A DNA stretch of 46,755 nucleotides, taken from assembly GCA_945906305.1 (NCBI GenBank), contig CAMDQT010000025.1, forward strand, positions 1-46,755, given 5' to 3'. Of the stretch, positions 8,999 through 28,206 are shown in pieces. This DNA is from Ferrithrix thermotolerans DSM 19514. GTDB taxonomy: Bacteria > Actinomycetota > Acidimicrobiia > Acidimicrobiales > CAIXPF01. Each line of letters begins with the position of its first letter. Position 1 is the first letter of the stretch. The notes beneath the pieces were generated by a model that had not been told where the DNA came from, made no database searches, and saw nothing but the letters and a program-made list of their open reading frames with translations. A program made the translations under genes and the position numbers.

Positions 8999-10663
8999 AT
9001 GAGACCCACTGGCGGCGACGAACCCGGCCTGAAGGACTATCTGGAGATCATTTGGCGCCGTCGCCTCGTGGTCGTGGCGAGCTTGATCGCGCTCGTCGGT
9101 GTGGCGACGCTGACGGCGACACTCAGGAGCCCGAAGTACCGTGCCGAGGCCACCGTTCTGGGCCGGTTGGCTATGAGCGACCGAATCCGTTTGCTGTCCT
9201 CGACCAAGGTGAGCGCGCCGGTGATCGACCGCCTGCTCGCCAATGAGGTGGTGTTCGCCGGCTCCGACGTGGTTGCCGCGGCCGCCGCGGGGGCCTACGG
9301 CAAGGCCTTCGCGGTCACAATCGAGGCTGGCGCCGCCAGCGACACGATGGTGGTGTCCGCCGTTGCCGCCTCCGCCTCCGCCGCCGCCGAGCGAGCCAAC
9401 GTCTACGCCGAGACTTACATCAAGGCCCGCTCGGCGATGATGACCGCCGAACTGACCTCTGCCCTCGCGGTGGTCGAGGAGGAACAGGCCGCCATTGTGG
9501 GTGAGATCGACGGCGGTGCTGATGCAGGGCGTTTCGCCAACCGGCTGCTGACCTTGGAAAGCGAAGCGGGCACGTACCGCTCCGCGATGCGTCAGATGCG
9601 GGTCAGCGCCAGCCCGGGATCAAACTGGAACCAGCTGGTTCATGCGGCCAAAGAGCCCGATCACCCCTTCGAGCCGGCCTGGGCGCGCACCCTGATGATC
9701 GCCGTCTTGCTCGGTTTCACCTTTGGCACGGGGGTGGTCTTTGTCCTCGAGGCCCTCGATGACACGGTGCACACTGAACGCGATGCAGCCGCGGCAGTCG
9801 GCGTGAGCGCCCTGGACGCGAGGCGCCGCCCGGCGGGTGCGCGACGCGCGGTGCGGCGACCACCGCTTCACCCTGCCCCACCACTCCCAGCGAGCGATCG
9901 CGACCCCAGCCTCGTCGGCGACCCGGTCGGAGGGGACCGCAGTGGGGCCGATTCAGAGGAACGTCCGAGCGAGCTGTGCCTTGAGATCGACTCCCGGCTC
10001 GGTGACCTAGCGAGCCCCCGGATCATTGCGCTCGCGGGTGCTCGGCACCCGGCGGGCACCTCCGAGGTCGCGGTGCAGCTCGCCTTTGACTTGGCGCTCC
10101 TCGGCCGCAAGGTCCTCCTAGTCGACGCCGATCATCATGCCAGTGGACGCAGTTCAGCGGCATTGTGCGGCCTGGGTGCGGATGAGCCGGGAATGGGCGA
10201 TGCCCTTAACGCCCCGCAGATGGGCCTCCCGGTGCACGCCGAGCGGCGCTCTGGCTTGGAGCTGTTTTCGGTCATGACCGCGGGAATGCGGACACCGGAG
10301 CCAGCCGAACTCGCTGTCGGTGGTCGGTTCACCCAACTGCTCCGACGCGCCGCGCCGCACTTCGACCTGGTCCTCATCGACGTGGGTCCGCTCGTTGGGG
10401 TGGGCAACGGGCCGCAGATCGCGGCCTGTGCGACAGCCACGGTCGTGGTGGCCATGGCCGGGTCGACGACGGGCCGAAACCTCGACGCGGCGGCGGTCCG
10501 GCTTCGCCGTGCCGGTGGCACCATCCTGCTCAGCGCGGTGTGTAAGGCTGATGAGCCGTTCCGCTCACGATGGACTTCGGGCAGAGGCCGCTTTCTGAGA
10601 CATGAGCGGGCCGAAAGAATCCCGCCCGCGGCGGTGCCGTTCGACGTGGGCGCGGCGCGATGA
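8999..10663 (+). CDS. Wzz-type chain-length protein fused to a BY-kinase-like domain with degenerate P-loop
   Basis: 554 residues from ATG 8999. The N-terminal Wzz domain begins KDYLEIIWRRR, with span 1 at about 22-41, a periplasmic helical stretch rich in Ala (about 90-215) and span 2 at about 230-252. A Pro/Arg-rich linker (about 275-320) leads to a ParA/BY-kinase fold. Its Walker A position reads ARHPAGTSE: the lysine of GKS/T is replaced by Thr354. Walker A' (LLVDADH, D376/D378) and Walker B (LVLIDVG, D461) remain. No tyrosine cluster exists at the C terminus. It probably sets polymer length without normal autokinase activity. The end overlaps the next gene as ATGA. Confidence 0.85.
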   Translation: MRPTGGDEPGLKDYLEIIWRRRLVVVASLIALVGVATLTATLRSPKYRAEATVLGRLAMSDRIRLLSSTKVSAPVIDRLLANEVVFAGSDVVAAAAAGAYGKAFAVTIEAGAASDTMVVSAVAASASAAAERANVYAETYIKARSAMMTAELTSALAVVEEEQAAIVGEIDGGADAGRFANRLLTLESEAGTYRSAMRQMRVSASPGSNWNQLVHAAKEPDHPFEPAWARTLMIAVLLGFTFGTGVVFVLEALDDTVHTERDAAAAVGVSALDARRRPAGARRAVRRPPLHPAPPLPASDRDPSLVGDPVGGDRSGADSEERPSELCLEIDSRLGDLASPRIIALAGARHPAGTSEVAVQLAFDLALLGRKVLLVDADHHASGRSSAALCGLGADEPGMGDALNAPQMGLPVHAERRSGLELFSVMTAGMRTPEPAELAVGGRFTQLLRRAAPHFDLVLIDVGPLVGVGNGPQIAACATATVVVAMAGSTTGRNLDAAAVRLRRAGGTILLSAVCKADEPFRSRWTSGRGRFLRHERAERIPPAAVPFDVGAAR

Positions 10664-18974: not shown

Positions 18975-19649
18975 TCAGCGGTCGAAACCGACGAAGCTGA
19001 CCAACTGGGGGGCGGGCACACGCGGCGCCTTGACGTCGTTGGCAGCAAAATCATCGAGCGGGTAGCCCATGGCGACACACGTCATGATGACCTCGTTCTC
19101 GGGGATGTTGGCGTGGGCCCGTACGACGTCGGACTGCATGATGCCTTGGCCATTGATGACCGTACCGAGGCCGCGGTCCCAGGCGGCCAGGCACAGTCCG
19201 TACGTCACGGCTCCGCAGTCGAAGTGACCGATTGTGGCGAGCTGCAGGCTCTTGTCGTAGGTGACCACAATGGATACCGGAGCGTCGAACTGGCGAAATC
19301 CCCGCATCATCCAGTCGGTCCGCATGGCCTTGTCCTCCCGGATGCCCATGGCGTCGAAGAGCTGGAAGGCGATTTGGACCTGCCGTTCGCGGTGCACGCC
19401 GTCGTAGGCGCCCTCGACGGGAATTTCCCTCTGGGGCTTGGCCCCCGCCATCATCCGCTCGGTATTTCCGGCGCGAATGCGGTCGAGCGGTTCGCCGGTC
19501 ACCACATGGAAATGCCACGGCTGGGTGTTCATCGAGGACGGGGCGCCGGAGGCAAGCTCGACGATCTCCAAAATGAGCTCGCGGGCAACGGGATCGGGCT
19601 TGTAACCGCGTATGGAGCGCCGCTCGCGTACCAGATGTCCGTGTTCCAC
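18975..19649 (-). CDS. Nitroreductase-family oxidoreductase
   Basis: 224 residues from GTG 19649, with GAAAGG upstream; TTG 19652 is the in-frame alternative. The FMN-binding N terminus RERRSIRGYKPDPV, the SSMNTQPWHFHVV motif (residues about 40-52) and the late GLGTVINGQG segment define the nitroreductase fold. Members reduce nitro groups, quinones or enones with NAD(P)H. The family is broad and substrate is not predicted. It is downstream of the CMD gene on the same strand but separated by 193 bases containing two hairpins, so it probably has its own promoter. Confidence 0.87.
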   Translation of the reverse strand: MEHGHLVRERRSIRGYKPDPVARELILEIVELASGAPSSMNTQPWHFHVVTGEPLDRIRAGNTERMMAGAKPQREIPVEGAYDGVHRERQVQIAFQLFDAMGIREDKAMRTDWMMRGFRQFDAPVSIVVTYDKSLQLATIGHFDCGAVTYGLCLAAWDRGLGTVINGQGIMQSDVVRAHANIPENEVIMTCVAMGYPLDDFAANDVKAPRVPAPQLVSFVGFDR

Positions 19650-19751
19650 CAAGTGCCTTTCGTCCGAACGTTGCGGCGCACATCCTACGCGCTACGGGGC
19701 ACGCGACCCCGCGCCTGGCGGGATGCTGCGGTGTGACCCTTGGGCGGTGTG

Positions 19752-21755: not shown

Positions 21756-22490
21756 TCAGCCTGAGTGGAGGGACGGACGGGGCCAACCGCGGGCGATGGC
21801 TCGCTCCGTGTCCGCGACTGCGCCGCGCCGTACTACGCGGTATACAGCGCGTGCCGTACGAGAGCCCCAGTAGGACCGGGGCCCGCCGAAGGATTCGCGT
21901 CCGTCGCCGAACCCGCGGTGTTGGACTTGCATTGGGTATCCGGCCACGCAGATGGCATCGGACGCGGTGCCCGTTGCGGGCACTCCGGCGTCGAAGAGAG
22001 CTTGCACCTTGGCCTCGGTGGCGGTGGCCAGCAGGTTCACCAGACACCCATCGTCGAGTTGGTCGGGGATGACCACAAGCAGGTTGATGGTGCCGATCGG
22101 TGTCGGGCCATGGGAGCCGCGACCATCAGCGCCGGGCGAAATTCGCTCCGGCGGCGCGGCGGCCCAGGTGGGTTGACCCAGGCCCACGGTGCCAACCACG
22201 CACACGCCGCCATCCTCGTCGCATTCGGCGGTGGCCACATCAACGGCGGTGAGCATGCCCACACCAGCACCATTCAGCCCCGCCGTCTGCGCTAGCTCCA
22301 TGACGTGCTGCGCGGGGTCGAGCCGGTCGTAGCCGGGATGCACCTGGGCATTGAGGAACCAGCCCAGCGGACCGATCCCGCCGCCGACGAGTGCGCTGGA
22401 CACCGACCGTAATGGCGCATCCGGACGCCACCATAGAAAGGAGAGGTCATGACCATCTTCCCGACGCCGCCCGTGCACGGGGTCGATCAC
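21756..22490 (-). CDS. cbiZ: Adenosylcobinamide amidohydrolase
   Basis: 244 residues from GTG 22490, preceded by a perfect AGGAGG and overlapping the btuD stop (GTGA). Diagnostic CbiZ segments are GGGIGPLGWFLNAQV (about 36-50), GLNGAGVGMLTAVDV, VVGTVGLGQPTWAA, IGTINLLVVIP, LVNLLATATEAKVQAL and PATGTASDAICVA. The enzyme cleaves the aminopropanol side chain of adenosylcobinamide (and in some species of pseudocobalamin) to give adenosylcobyric acid, allowing the cell to rebuild the lower ligand. Being the last gene after btuF-C-D behind a cobalamin riboswitch, it marks the operon as corrinoid import plus remodelling. Confidence 0.92.
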   Translation of the reverse strand: MIDPVHGRRREDGHDLSFLWWRPDAPLRSVSSALVGGGIGPLGWFLNAQVHPGYDRLDPAQHVMELAQTAGLNGAGVGMLTAVDVATAECDEDGGVCVVGTVGLGQPTWAAAPPERISPGADGRGSHGPTPIGTINLLVVIPDQLDDGCLVNLLATATEAKVQALFDAGVPATGTASDAICVAGYPMQVQHRGFGDGRESFGGPRSYWGSRTARAVYRVVRRGAVADTERAIARGWPRPSLHSG

Positions 22491-23350
22491 GTGTCCTCCT
22501 GGTCGGCCGGCGCCTCGTGGGCGGTGCCGCAGTGCCCCACACGGCTGCGGATGGGCACCACGATGAGCCGATCGCCGTCGTGCAGCACTCGTACTGTGGC
22601 CCGGTAATGCTTCGACAGGGTGGCCTCGGTCAAGACCTCTGCCGGGGTACCGAATGCGGCCACTTCGCCGTCCGCCAGCAGCAGCATCTGGTCGGCGTAC
22701 TGGCCGGCCAAGGTCAGGTCGTGCATGGTGCACAGCACGGTCAGGCCGACTTCGTGGCGCAACTCTTCCACCAGGTCGAGCACCTCGAGTTGGTGGCCGA
22801 TATCGAGCGAACCGGTCGGCTCGTCGAGCAGGAGCACAGGGGCATGTTGCGCCAGCGCCCTGGCTATGACCACCCGCTGGGCCTCGCCTCCGGACAGAGT
22901 GGTGAGCTGGCGCGGGGCGAGTTCGGTCGCTCCGAGCCGTTGGAGCACGCCGGTCACCGCCCGCAGGTCGGTGGAACTTTCCCGGGCGAAAGGACCCATA
23001 TGGGCCATGCGGCCGAGCAGCACATAGGTGCCTACGGTCATGCCCGGTGCCAGGACCGGCGTCTGGGGCACCAGCGCCAGTCGGCGGGCGCGTTCCCGCG
23101 GGGACAACGCCGAACTTGGCGTGCCGTGCACGCTCACCGATCCTTCATGGGCCACCAAACCCATCACCGCTCGCAGCAGCGTCGACTTGCCCGCCCCGTT
23201 CGCACCGACCACGGTCATCCAGCAGCCCGCGGGCACGGTGGTCGTGACGTGGCGCAGCACGCTGCGCCCGCCGAGTCTGACCGACACGTCGCGCAGTACG
23301 ACCGCGGCCGCACCACCCCCGTCGGGTGGCACCGATGTCGGCGTCCTCAT
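22487..23350 (-). CDS. btuD: Corrinoid ABC importer, ATP-binding protein
   Basis: 287 residues from ATG 23350, overlapping the permease stop by ATGA. Walker A is GANGAGKST, the signature LSGGEAQRVVIARAL, Walker B LLLDEPTGSLD, and the switch histidine lies in CTMHDL. The set is that of FecE/BtuD-type ATPases of iron-siderophore, heme and cobalamin uptake. It would power the permease encoded upstream. The cobalamin riboswitch and cbiZ favour corrinoids as cargo. The final 35 residues beyond the ATPase core are polar and end at the cbiZ start. Confidence 0.9.
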   Translation of the reverse strand: MRTPTSVPPDGGGAAAVVLRDVSVRLGGRSVLRHVTTTVPAGCWMTVVGANGAGKSTLLRAVMGLVAHEGSVSVHGTPSSALSPRERARRLALVPQTPVLAPGMTVGTYVLLGRMAHMGPFARESSTDLRAVTGVLQRLGATELAPRQLTTLSGGEAQRVVIARALAQHAPVLLLDEPTGSLDIGHQLEVLDLVEELRHEVGLTVLCTMHDLTLAGQYADQMLLLADGEVAAFGTPAEVLTEATLSKHYRATVRVLHDGDRLIVVPIRSRVGHCGTAHEAPADQEDT

Positions 23351-24402
23351 CGGTCCCGCTGGTGACTCGAGCGCAGCACCAGCACGAAGAACGGTGCCCC
23401 GAGAAACGCGGTCACCACCCCGATAGGCAGTTCGGCCGGGGCCAGAATGGTACGGGCGACAAGATCGGTCAGGGCCAAGAAGGCGGCCCCGAAGAGCAGC
23501 GAGAGCGGCAGAACTATGCGGGCGCTCGCTCCCACCATCATGCGGACCAGGTGCGGGACGATGATGCCGACGAACACGATGAGGCCGCTTACCGCCACTG
23601 CGGCTGCGGTGCCGAGGGTGGCGGCGAGCACGACCACAAGTCTGATGCGGCGGGGGTCCGCGCCTAGAGACAGCGCCTCCTCGTCGCCGACGGCAAGGAC
23701 GTCGAGTCGCCGCCGGTACGCCAGCAGGACGGCGAGGGAAACCACGGCGTAGGGCGCAAGCAAGGCCACGTCGTGCCATCCCGACGTGGAGAGGCGACCC
23801 AGGATCCACGAGTACACGCGGCGAATGTCATCCTGGTTGCGCTGCTGCAAGTACGTCTGCATGGCGGTGAAGAAGGCGGAGACCGCCACCCCGGCCAGGA
23901 CCAGGGAGACCGTCGCGCCGCCGTAGTTTGCGGCACGGCCAAGTAGATAGGTGAGCGCCATGGCCACAATGGCTCCGGCGAAAGCCCCGAGGGGAACCAT
24001 CGCCGGCGAACTCCAGGCGCCGTCGGACACCAACACCAGCGTGGCGCCGAAACCGGCGCCACCAGCCACGCCGAGGAGGTACGGATCGGCGAGGGGATTG
24101 CGGAAGGTGGCCTGATACGCGCCACCGCCTGTGGCGAGCACGGCGCCCACCATGAGGCCCAGCACCACCCGGGGCAGTCGAAACTGCCACACGATGGTGG
24201 ATTCGGTATCGGACAGTCCTGATCGCAGTTGAACTAACTCGCGTATTACCGGTCCCGGCCCGAGGCGCACCGGTCCGATCATGACCCCGGCCACCACCGC
24301 CACCGCCACCGCCACCAACCCGGCGCCAAGCCATCGGCCGGCGAGCCGCTGCGGCCCGGTGGCCTGCTCACTACGGCCCGCAGCGGTGCCGGTCGGGTTC
24401 AC
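23347..24402 (-). CDS. btuC: Corrinoid ABC importer, permease (FecCD family)
   Basis: 351 residues, about ten membrane spans, no soluble domain. FecCD family landmarks are LPRVVLGLMVGAVLATGGGAYQ, NPLADPYLLGVAGGAGFGAT, the coupling-helix region LGADPRRIRLVVV and GLIVFVGIIVPHLVRMMVG, which contacts the ATPase. ATG 24402 overlaps the btuF stop. The polypeptide would form the homodimeric inner-membrane channel with BtuD. Family members carry cobalamin, heme or iron-siderophores; context selects corrinoids. Confidence 0.9.
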   Translation of the reverse strand: MNPTGTAAGRSEQATGPQRLAGRWLGAGLVAVAVAVVAGVMIGPVRLGPGPVIRELVQLRSGLSDTESTIVWQFRLPRVVLGLMVGAVLATGGGAYQATFRNPLADPYLLGVAGGAGFGATLVLVSDGAWSSPAMVPLGAFAGAIVAMALTYLLGRAANYGGATVSLVLAGVAVSAFFTAMQTYLQQRNQDDIRRVYSWILGRLSTSGWHDVALLAPYAVVSLAVLLAYRRRLDVLAVGDEEALSLGADPRRIRLVVVLAATLGTAAAVAVSGLIVFVGIIVPHLVRMMVGASARIVLPLSLLFGAAFLALTDLVARTILAPAELPIGVVTAFLGAPFFVLVLRSSHQRDR

Positions 24403-25349
24403 TTGGCGATGGGCTGCTTGGCTATTGCGGCCGCGACCGCGCGGAGGAAATCGACGATGCGTGGGCCCCAGCGGCTGGTGATGTCGTCATTGAGTTCCAC
24501 CACTGATCCCGACGCTACGGCCTTCAACTTCGACCATCCTGGCCGCGCTGCCAGCGTGGTCTTGTTCTGGCCGCAGCAGATGGTGTCAGCGAGGAAGATC
24601 AGGTCAGGATTGGCGCTCAGCAGGTATTCCTGGGACAGCTGCGGATAGCCCGAACCGTCTTTGTCGGCTGAATCGGCGATATTGGTCAGTCCCACCAGGG
24701 AATACAGCGAACCGATGAAGGTGTGCGAGGTGACGCTGTAGAGCGTGTCATCGAGCTCGTGGTAGTAGGTCGGCTTGCTGGTGCGGTTGGTGACACCGGC
24801 CAGGATGGCCTCGATGTCGCGCTTCATGGTGGCCACGACCTTTTCGGCGCCCACCGTGTATCCGGTGGCCCGGCCCAGCAGCTCGAGTTGGTCGTAGCTG
24901 TCCGCGATGTCCACCGCCGCCGGAAGGACCAGCAGGGTTACCTTTGCTTTCGCTAGCCCGGTAACCAACTCCGTCACAGCATCCGAGACGATAACCAGAT
25001 CGGGTGCCATGCCGATGATCGCCTCGATATTCGGGGTGAACCCGGAGAGGTCAGTTTTGGGCGCCTCGGGTGGGAAGTTGGATTGGTCATCGACCGCTTT
25101 GACCGCTGCTCCGGCTCCGATGGCGAAGAGCATCTCGGTGGCGGTGGCGGAAAGCGAGACGATGTGGCGGGGGGCGGCCTTGATGGTGAGGGTTCCCTCG
25201 GCGGTTTCCAGGGTCACCGGGAAGGTACCGGTGACGCTGGCGGCGGCCGACGTGTCCTTCTCGCTGTCGCCGGCAGAGCCGCACGCCGTGGCGAGCAGAC
25301 TCGCGGCGACGGTCGCGGCTAGGGCAAGCCTTCGAATGGGCGATGTCAT
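24399..25349 (-). CDS. btuF: Corrinoid-binding lipoprotein of ABC importer
   Basis: 316 residues. The N terminus IRRLALAATVAASLL with LATAC is a lipoprotein signal (lipobox Cys about residue 23), so the mature protein is anchored on the outer face of the membrane. The body matches class III substrate-binding proteins: PRHIVSLSATATEMLFAIGAG, then FTPNIEAIIGMAPDLVIV, a long linking helix and LLSANPDLIFL. It delivers substrate to BtuC. AGGAGG lies 4 bases before ATG 25349 and may be hidden by the riboswitch platform. First gene of the btuFCD-cbiZ operon. Confidence 0.9.
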   Translation of the reverse strand: MTSPIRRLALAATVAASLLATACGSAGDSEKDTSAAASVTGTFPVTLETAEGTLTIKAAPRHIVSLSATATEMLFAIGAGAAVKAVDDQSNFPPEAPKTDLSGFTPNIEAIIGMAPDLVIVSDAVTELVTGLAKAKVTLLVLPAAVDIADSYDQLELLGRATGYTVGAEKVVATMKRDIEAILAGVTNRTSKPTYYHELDDTLYSVTSHTFIGSLYSLVGLTNIADSADKDGSGYPQLSQEYLLSANPDLIFLADTICCGQNKTTLAARPGWSKLKAVASGSVVELNDDITSRWGPRIVDFLRAVAAAIAKQPIAK

Positions 25350-25353
25350 GTAT

Positions 25354-25425
25354 GCCTCCTGTCAGTCGAGGATCCCGCTCGACGACAGGTCGCATGGCCC
25401 GTCGTACGAATCGCTCCATCCTCGA
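25354..25425 (-). promoter_or_regulatory. Riboswitch expression platform and btuF ribosome binding site
   Basis: On the minus strand the ribosome binding site GACAGGAGG (complement of 25355-25363) can pair through GACAGG with CCTGTC (complement of 25384-25389). Around it, TCGAGGAT (complement of 25418-25425) is complementary to ATCCTCGA (complement of 25366-25373), with an inner ACGAC/GTCGT stem (25382-25386, 25401-25405). The mutually exclusive pairings suit translational control by masking of the binding site. Pairing is seen; the mechanism is inferred. Confidence 0.6.
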
Positions 25426-25439
25426 GAGCGTTTTTCGTC

Positions 25440-25560
25440 GAAACTGGCTCGGCAGGCGACCTGGCTTGTCTCTCACCCTGGGTTGGGAGGGAGAACCACA
25501 GTTGCGGGACAGCACCGGGTTCGCACCGGATTTCGCTGACCGATCAGTCAGCCGACACGG
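25440..25560 (-). promoter_or_regulatory. Cobalamin (adenosylcobalamin) riboswitch
   Basis: Read on the minus strand, CCGGTGCGAACCCGG (complement of about 25516-25530) is followed by TGCTGTCCCGCAACTGTGG and then by the B12 box AAGCCAGGTCGCCTGCC (complement of about 25451-25467). These are the conserved core blocks of the class I cobalamin riboswitch in the correct order. A GCTGAC/GTCAGC hairpin lies at the 5' side (25534-25551). It lies 90 bases before btuF, so high cobalamin should lower expression of the importer and cbiZ. Confidence 0.93.
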
Positions 25561-25619: not shown

Positions 25620-26492
25620 TCAGGCGTAGTTGACTGCCAACTCCGAGGCGCGCTCACCGGCGATACGGGTGTGCCACATCCGACGCGGCTCGGTCAGGTC
25701 GAACTCGGTGGCGCAATGCAGCAACCGCCGGTTGTCCCACACGATGGCATCGCCTTCGGTCCAACGGTGGTAATGGATGCGCGGCGCCTGGCAGGCCTGC
25801 TGCACCAAGCGATCGAGTAGCGCCTCGGACTCGATGGGGTCCATGCCGATGATGCCGTACGCATGTCGGCCGATGCACAAGTTCGGGCGACCGGTCTCGG
25901 GGTGGATCTTCACCAGCGGCCGCAGGGACGGCTCGCCGTCGTGGTACCCGTACGCGTCGTACCCGCCACGGTCGTTCGTCTTGGACGGCATGTAGCCCGC
26001 CCGGGCTTGGCTGTAGAACAGCGAGTGGTAGGCCAAAAGGTGCCCGAGATGGTGCTGGGTGGCGGGGTCGAGCGCCTCGTAGGCGGCGCGCATGTCGGCG
26101 AACCCGGTGGGCGCTCCGTTGCTGGGCACGGTCTCGGCGGTGAACACGGCGCCCTTGGCCTGCAGAGGCATGTAGGTGCTGTCGTGGTGCCAGCCCTCGT
26201 TGCCGCGGATGGCCTTGACGACATCGTCGGCGGGGTCGCTGTGGATGGTGCCGCTTCGGCCGATGTTGGAGATCGGCGCTGCCGCAAACTCAAGCTCACC
26301 GAAGCGGCGCGCGAAGTCGTTCTGCTCGTCGCGGGAGAGGTACTGGCCGGGGAAGATCAGTAGGCCGTACTCCAACCAGGCCCGGTGCAGTACTTGCCAG
26401 GTTGGCTCATCCAGTGAGCGCACCTGCACGCCACTCACGGTGGCGCCGAAGCTGGCGTCGACGGGATCGATCTGCACGCTGTTGTGCCCCAT
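25620..26492 (-). CDS. TauD/TfdA-family Fe(II)/2-oxoglutarate-dependent dioxygenase
   Basis: 290 residues. The facial triad is complete: H102-x-D104 (GWHHDSTY) and H259 (RRLLHCATEFD), with the spacing of TauD (99/101/255). Arginines in EPRRMWHTR would bind 2-oxoglutarate. The N terminus contains GATVSGVQVRSL, the usual start of the family. Enzymes of the group hydroxylate taurine, sulfonates, phenoxyacetates or sulfate esters to release the side group. Genes for sulfur assimilation (cysK-cysE) lie next upstream, so a sulfonate or alkylsulfate substrate is a fair guess but only that. Single gene; ATG 26492. Confidence 0.9.
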   Translation of the reverse strand: MGHNSVQIDPVDASFGATVSGVQVRSLDEPTWQVLHRAWLEYGLLIFPGQYLSRDEQNDFARRFGELEFAAAPISNIGRSGTIHSDPADDVVKAIRGNEGWHHDSTYMPLQAKGAVFTAETVPSNGAPTGFADMRAAYEALDPATQHHLGHLLAYHSLFYSQARAGYMPSKTNDRGGYDAYGYHDGEPSLRPLVKIHPETGRPNLCIGRHAYGIIGMDPIESEALLDRLVQQACQAPRIHYHRWTEGDAIVWDNRRLLHCATEFDLTEPRRMWHTRIAGERASELAVNYA

Positions 26493-26573
26493 GGCCGAAG
26501 CGTAGGGCTAGGACCGGTCCAGGACAAGGAGCATCCTGGCCACGACCATGATCTCGCGGTGCCAGGAGCTCGC

Positions 26574-27272
26574 TCAGATCGAGAAGTCCTCACCCGACCA
26601 CACGCCCTCGGCCGATGGCCGAAGGGAGGTCAGGACTGGCGTTCCGCCGAGGGAGGTCTCGAGCCGGTCGAGTCGTTGGGTGAGCGACGCCAGACTGGTA
26701 GCCACCAGGTCGGGCATATGGCTGCCGTTGAGATCGGGCTGCACTCCGCTCGGGCGAGACTTTGGGCGCGAGATGACCTGGCCGGGTACGCCGACCACCA
26801 CCGAGTTCGGTGGCACGGGCCGTACGACGACGGCGTTGGCACCCACGCGGCAGTCTGAACCGACCTCGATCGGCCCGAGAATTTTGGCGCCTGCGCCGAT
26901 CGTCACGCGGTCGCCGATGGTGGGGTGGCGTTTGCCTTTGGCGAGGCTGGTGCCGCCGAGCGTGACCCCGTGATACATCATCACGTCCGCGCCGATCTCG
27001 GCGGTCTCACCGATGACGACTCCCATGCCGTGGTCGATGAACAACCCGGGGCCGATACGCGCTCCGGGGTGGATCTCGATACCGGTGAACCATCGGGAAA
27101 ACTGTGACAGGGCCCGGGCCGGAAAACGCAGACCCCGCCTCCACATGGCGTGCGCGACGCGATGCATCCACACGGCGTGTAGGCCCGGGTAGAGCAGCGC
27201 CACCTCGATCGAGGAGCGCGCCGCGGGGTCTTGTCGCCGGGCCGACTGGAGGTCGTGTCGCAGGCTGGACAC
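26574..27272 (-). CDS. cysE: Serine O-acetyltransferase
   Basis: 232 residues from GTG 27272. The left-handed beta-helix hexapeptide repeats are visible from [18 protein letters not shown] through [32 protein letters not shown] and [24 protein letters not shown]. The catalytic His-Asp pair lies in [10 protein letters not shown]. It acetylates serine with acetyl-CoA for cysteine synthesis. It follows cysK on the same strand with a single base between the cysK stop codon and this GTG, so the two enzymes are co-translated. It is the short, N-terminally reduced form, lacking the long helical domain of the enterobacterial enzyme, with a variable C-terminal tail of about 60 residues. Confidence 0.93.
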
Positions 27273-27273
27273 G

Positions 27274-28206
<933 letters not shown>

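Follow-up and report, generated by a model that had tools for sequence, protein, structure and literature searches.

A predicted cobalamin riboswitch-controlled operon for corrinoid import and CbiZ-mediated remodelling in a freshwater Acidimicrobiia actinobacterium

The window analysed here is a stretch of 46,755 nucleotides (nt) from assembly GCA_945906305.1, contig CAMDQT010000025.1, and represents an entire contig (C25) of a 3.1 Mb draft genome that comprises 52 contigs and is 97.9% complete. On its minus strand it carries a cobalamin riboswitch followed by genes for a BtuFCD-like importer and a predicted CbiZ amidohydrolase (Table 1). The host is a lake or freshwater actinobacterium of the class Acidimicrobiia without the corrin-ring genes tested. 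Its closest named relative was a metagenome-derived genome of an uncultured member of the Acidimicrobiia (isolate ErkenSummer_bin-0525, from Lake Erken going by the name), in which (locus L089) the same operon was found with a CbiZ 64% identical over the full length. Comparisons covered 59 relatives, the four genomes of the genus (the host's own among them), an evenly spread sample of 396 genomes of the phylum, and a set of 20 leaders of the order in which the riboswitch stood directly before the same binding-protein gene.

Table 1. Coordinates of the genes and leader elements of the operon within the window.
Feature	Position	Strand	Basis or remark
Cobalamin riboswitch aptamer, RF00174	25434..25571	minus	covariance model, full length (model 1-189)
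L5, UCCCG	25509-25505	minus	agrees with published consensus (PMC10653944)
B12 box, GCCAGGTCGCCTGCC	25465-25451	minus	inside aptamer
P13 hairpin, CGCUCU-CGAGGAU-GGAGCG	25403..25440	minus	in all 20 riboswitch-btuF leaders
Loop L13, CGAGGAU	25424-25418	minus	within P13 hairpin
Sequestor hairpin, CCUGUCGUCGAG / CUCGAC-U-GACAGG	25358..25389	minus	covers Shine-Dalgarno start (putative OFF state)
AUCCUCGA, candidate partner of L13 region UCGAGGAU (25425-25418)	25366..25373	minus	putative ON state, exclusive with sequestor
Shine-Dalgarno site of first gene, AGGAGG	25355..25360	minus	read from sequence
BtuF-like substrate-binding lipoprotein	24399..25349	minus	Peripla_BP_2 PF01497, 1.8e-27; lipobox LATAC
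BtuC-like permease (FecCD)	23347..24402	minus	Pfam 3.2e-90
BtuD-like ATPase (ABC_tran)	22487..23350	minus	Pfam 3e-29
CbiZ, adenosylcobinamide/cobamide amidohydrolase (predicted)	21756..22490	minus	PF01955, 7.1e-45

The original prediction of a minus-strand cobalamin riboswitch followed by four overlapping genes was borne out. Neither of the two refuting outcomes named with it, the lack of a cobalamin-model hit or a failure against the CbiZ profile, occurred. The genes belonged to the families PF01497, FecCD, ABC_tran and CbiZ and were joined by three 4-nt overlaps, which read GTGA, ATGA and GTGA. A binding protein, a FecCD permease and an ABC ATPase were thus encoded together, as in BtuFCD importers. 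The best NCBIfam models were BtuC for the permease and a corrinoid ABC transporter ATPase for the ATPase, both under the cut-off, and the PDB sequence matches of the binding protein included B12-binding as well as heme-binding proteins.

The product of the last gene, which had been named CbiZ, matched the PF01955 profile with 153.8 bits (cut-off 27), its residues 24-220 aligning with profile positions 3-191 of 191, and it retained the conserved positions seen among 19 aligned CbiZ sequences. The fused CbiS form, with its alpha-ribazole phosphatase domain, was excluded, since NF038002 aligned residues 24-226 to positions 8-194 of 335 with 95 bits against a cut-off of 250. No sequence relatives of CbiZ were detected in the PDB up to E=1, and a structure model built from a two-sequence alignment was too poor to be used, with a mean predicted local distance difference test (pLDDT) score of 44.

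The search with RF00174 matched the full model at 36.6 bits (gathering score 31.5), with E=8.4e-6 for the window and 1.3e-7 genome-wide, and this was the sole cobalamin riboswitch match in the whole genome. The score is modest, yet 19 further genomes of the order likewise had a riboswitch match 5' of this same gene, a recurrent placement that argues against a chance hit. The aptamer fell in the region originally proposed but does not end at 25,560 as suggested there, running to 25,571 with its B12 box well inside. Its L5 sequence corresponds to the consensus of corrinoid riboswitches, UCCCG (PMC10653944). A second and stronger cobalamin riboswitch (79.9 bits) was observed before cobT in the related genome G002 (L066 around 9813-9937, C409), whereas no cobalamin riboswitch preceded cobT in the window's genome.

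The leader between the aptamer and the first gene revealed two conserved helices. All 20 leaders contained the P13 hairpin, and pairs three, four and five, counted from the loop, showed compensatory changes (CG/UA, CG/GC and GC/AU/UA); pair counts were also made on five leaders of the family. Its loop, L13, can pair with L5 by three base pairs (bp) in 15 of the 20 leaders, a GGA:UCC kiss being possible in the window. A kiss between UUCGUAC and the P5-region sequence GUGCGAA was considered but dropped, because relatives did not retain it and L5 has been published as UCCCG. In the sequestor hairpin, the pairing of CCUGUCGUCGAG with CUCGACUGACAGG includes the first half of AGGAGG. The Shine-Dalgarno stretch pairs with upstream sequence in most of the 20 leaders, more strongly than in dinucleotide shuffles (combined p 8e-8 for 20 leaders and 9e-7 with one per family), and the minus strand between 21500 and 25800 contained no terminator-like site. 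Together these two results point to translational repression as the best reading of the leader. The predicted expression platform, P13 plus a hairpin masking the ribosome-binding site, is common to the riboswitch-btuFCD layout in 20 genomes of the order.

The loop L13 may have a further role. The L13 region UCGAGGAU was perfectly complementary to AUCCUCGA, with 8 bp in the window and in three relatives, and because AUCCUCGA overlaps the 3' half of the sequestor inner stem, this pairing and the sequestor would be mutually exclusive. Both sides changed in a compensatory manner in G004 (UCGAGGAA with UUCCUCGA), while in G048 and G049 the loop was CGGAGGA and the partner UCCUCC. The best L13 partner ended 3-8 nt 5' of the Shine-Dalgarno site in 17 of the 20 leaders, and the combined p for the L13-partner pairing was 3e-6 for the 20 leaders. 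These leader sequences are, however, related rather than independent, the combined p was just 0.005 with one leader per family, and a swap of own against foreign L13 loops was not significant (p=0.09). It is therefore a tentative suggestion, with the odds somewhat against it, that the Acidimicrobiia share an order-wide platform variant in which L13 itself is the antisequestor, pairing either with L5 (ligand bound, off) or with the strand before the Shine-Dalgarno site (no ligand, on). If true, sensing and switching would compete directly for a single loop.

Comparative analysis showed that, within the family, G002, G003 and G004 retained the layout of riboswitch, binding protein, permease, ATPase and CbiZ, which a contig break interrupted in G005. 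In other members of the order, cbiZ was frequently preceded immediately by a riboswitch and followed by cobU-cobS-cbiB; G049 and G018 had a single cluster of importer genes, cbiZ and rebuilding genes. CbiZ was detected in 16 of the 59 relatives and in 23 of the 396 phylum genomes, and it has been annotated in 1041 of ~11,000 bacterial species, or 9.1% (PMC6461909), so that the rarity originally ascribed to it outside archaea was overstated. In a tree restricted to sequences of the phylum, the CbiZ copies of the genus and of G004 formed a clade (93/86), whereas the G005 copy grouped with those of other lineages (G022 and G376; 100/98) and not with the genus, from which some exchange of cbiZ between lineages appears probable. 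G005, a member of the same family, also encoded CbiC and CbiJ (L062, L063) and is likely a corrinoid producer. In G019 (C10 7-465, L018) a second CbiZ copy, situated at a contig end below a riboswitch, carried an in-frame TGA and is possibly decaying. The genome G001, of the same genus and 99% complete, had neither CbiZ nor an RF00174 match but kept CbiB, CobS and PduO, and has apparently lost the import-remodelling operon.

The rest of the genome was searched for the branch that rebuilds a cobamide, namely CobT, threonine-phosphate (Thr-P) decarboxylase, CbiB, CobU and CobS. Contig C46 (locus L057) carried three consecutive genes, for CobT, a Thr-P decarboxylase-like protein and CbiB, the genes for CobU and CobS were adjacent on contig C7 (L058), and on contig C1 a PduO adenosyltransferase adjoined MetH. 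CobT passed its NCBIfam cut-off and CobS and CbiB passed those of Pfam, while CobU, CobS and the decarboxylase were below their NCBIfam cut-offs; the CobU-type protein had the P-loop GGARSGKS and scored 136 bits with the bifunctional kinase model, slightly below the cut-off of 161. Users of B12, named from B12-binding matches and sequence reading, were MetH (L133 317-3832) and two mutases, one of them a methylmalonyl-CoA mutase with a MeaB-like gene behind it (L134) and the other encoded in L136. Directly after cbiB, all four genus genomes carried a TIM-barrel gene resembling xylose isomerase (PF01261; L057 8476-9216 on the host's own C46, L064 6700-7482, L066 4106-4891 and L065 7640-8416). 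Its nearest models were 2-oxo-tetronate/hydroxypyruvate isomerase, below their cut-offs, and it belongs to the same superfamily as CbiR, the other known cobamide-remodelling hydrolase.

Markers of de novo synthesis were absent. Neither CbiC (CobH) nor CbiJ (CobK) scored above cut-off in any of the four genus genomes, nor did CbiH (CobJ) in the genus, although CbiJ carries little weight as a marker in this order, where most genomes with CbiC lack it too. BluB was not found above cut-off in the host's own genome or family. A nitroreductase near the operon (18975-19652) scored 39.5 bits against a BluB cut-off of 150, and C2:68473-69060, the best candidate for a divergent BluB, was rejected as it was without the RRDVR and SVGxSQPW motifs common to scoring BluBs. 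With CobT present and BluB absent, the lower ligand would come from outside or from a recycled nucleotide; the original proposal that the cell attaches its own lower ligand is thus supported in part, by the presence of CobT. Since rebuilding enzymes and B12 users are present while de novo markers and BluB are absent, the host most likely lives by salvage, remodelling the corrinoids it imports and rebuilding a cobamide from cobyric acid, with a lower ligand obtained elsewhere or recycled.

Among the genes flanking the operon, an F420-dependent LLM oxidoreductase (TIGR03619; 20803-21717) on the same strand started about 40 nt after cbiZ. Its inclusion as a fifth operon gene was unsupported, since in G003 a plus-strand flavin monooxygenase separates it from cbiZ. 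The upstream region 25620-28206 contained genes for a TauD-like dioxygenase, a hexapeptide transferase (serine acetyltransferase-like) and a pyridoxal phosphate (PLP)-dependent, cysteine synthase-like protein; their order was the same in G003, indicating a conserved and possibly sulphur-related neighbourhood.

Taken together, the gene identities, the operon's conservation within the family and the rebuilding branch elsewhere in the genome favour the original reading of riboswitch-controlled import and remodelling, and the operon is interpreted, with a probability of about 0.86, as a unit for scavenging and remodelling corrinoids that is repressed by B12. Several points weigh against it. The importer fell below the curated equivalog cut-offs of every BtuC, BtuD and BtuF model in NCBIfam, for which reason its substrate is assigned from context and "BtuFCD-like" is the safe label; the amidohydrolase activity of CbiZ is a prediction from sequence; and in a draft genome of 52 contigs the absences of BluB and of the de novo genes are provisional. 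The FecCD and Peripla_BP_2 families include heme and siderophore importers, and with heme-binding proteins among the PDB matches the transporter might carry another iron- or tetrapyrrole-like substrate, the riboswitch merely signalling corrinoid status. This is very improbable, because the importer is linked to corrinoids by the 20 genomes of the order where a riboswitch directly precedes this binding protein, because the best models for permease and ATPase were those of corrinoid transporters, and because cbiZ shares the operon through 4-nt overlaps. Termination of transcription, in place of masking of the ribosome site, would match Dehalobacter restrictus, in which all five cobalamin riboswitches end in predicted terminators (PMC4285132). 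It is improbable for the window, where the minus strand offered no terminator-like site between 21500 and 25800 and the last leader hairpin includes the start of the Shine-Dalgarno site, a pairing found in most of the 20 leaders.

A more substantial question is which corrinoid CbiZ would act upon. A bacterium with a CobU kinase, such as that of Salmonella, can salvage cobinamide without CbiZ, whereas archaea with the non-homologous CobY cannot. As the P-loop CobU-type protein of the host can probably phosphorylate cobinamide directly, CbiZ would be dispensable for this precursor. That CbiZ serves cobinamide salvage only, as in archaea, without remodelling complete cobamides, agrees with the naming of PF01955 for adenosylcobinamide amidohydrolase and with the archaeal enzyme, which acts on adenosylcobinamide (as cited in PMC3541065), but is unlikely in a genome with a CobU-type protein, and one bacterial CbiZ, that of Rhodobacter sphaeroides, hydrolyses pseudocobalamin, not cobalamin (PMC7733943). 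From the presence of CobU and the likeness to R. sphaeroides, remodelling of complete cobamides with an unsuitable lower ligand is the likelier main role of CbiZ. Of the incomplete or foreign corrinoids first suggested as its substrates, foreign cobamides are thus retained, while incomplete corrinoids are less likely to be the main substrate given the P-loop CobU-type protein.

Under the remodelling interpretation, low intracellular cobamide would leave the Shine-Dalgarno site accessible, allowing joint production of the binding protein, permease, ATPase and CbiZ. An imported corrinoid would be adenosylated by PduO, and CbiZ would hydrolyse the amide bond bearing the nucleotide loop, yielding adenosylcobyric acid. 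CbiB would then re-attach aminopropanol phosphate, supplied via the Thr-P decarboxylase, CobU would activate the product with guanosine triphosphate (GTP), and CobS would join it to alpha-ribazole phosphate made by CobT, giving a cobamide usable by MetH and the methylmalonyl-CoA mutases. As adenosylated cobamide accumulates, it would bind the aptamer, so that L5 and L13 kiss, P13 is held, the hairpin masks the Shine-Dalgarno site and translation stops.

The operon adds a documented case of predicted riboswitch-controlled import and CbiZ remodelling in freshwater Acidimicrobiia, and suggests the use of corrinoids such as cyanobacterial pseudocobalamin without making the corrin ring or dimethylbenzimidazole. 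The genus would be somewhat unusual in its phylum, as very few Actinobacteria are predicted precursor salvagers (PMC6461909). In the literature searched, a single paper named both CbiZ and Acidimicrobiia, and it mentioned them apart without linking them. The gene cbiZ lies beside cobalamin transporter genes in many bacteria, Chlorobium included, a lake organism that, like the host of the window, has cbiZ next to btu transporter genes and may use cyanobacterial pseudocobalamin. Chlorobium differs in having cobalamin biosynthesis genes, and a riboswitch-first single operon is not described for it in the portion of the source available (PMC8620254 for all statements on Chlorobium).

With respect to its leader, the window resembles the riboswitches of Escherichia coli btuB and Priestia megaterium metE in the L5 sequence UCCCG, the P13/L13 hairpin and a downstream sequestor or terminator (PMC10653944). 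The antisequestor of P. megaterium metE is the 3' strand of P13 (PMC10653944), whereas in the window L13 is complementary to the strand beside the Shine-Dalgarno site and may double in that role; this suggested role would be the one possibly new detail of the system. The 20 leaders with their covarying platform provide a ready set for the question of how L13 couples to ribosome-site masking. As regards metabolism, R. sphaeroides makes corrinoids de novo, unlike the window's genome, which is without the CbiC and CbiJ markers and BluB. The two share a bacterial CbiZ and nucleotide-loop assembly genes, the basis of pseudocobalamin remodelling (Gray and Escalante-Semerena, 2009, as cited in PMC7733943 and PMC6461909). 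A closer counterpart is operon-4 of D. restrictus, which likewise combines a cobalamin riboswitch, BtuFCD and cbiZ (Dehre_2538) in one operon of a host dependent on external corrinoid (PMC4285132). D. restrictus differs in being a Firmicute with terminator-type transcriptional riboswitches and several cbiZ copies, compared with a translational-type leader and one cbiZ in the window. With this layout already published, the operon soundly illustrates a known strategy and is not a new system.

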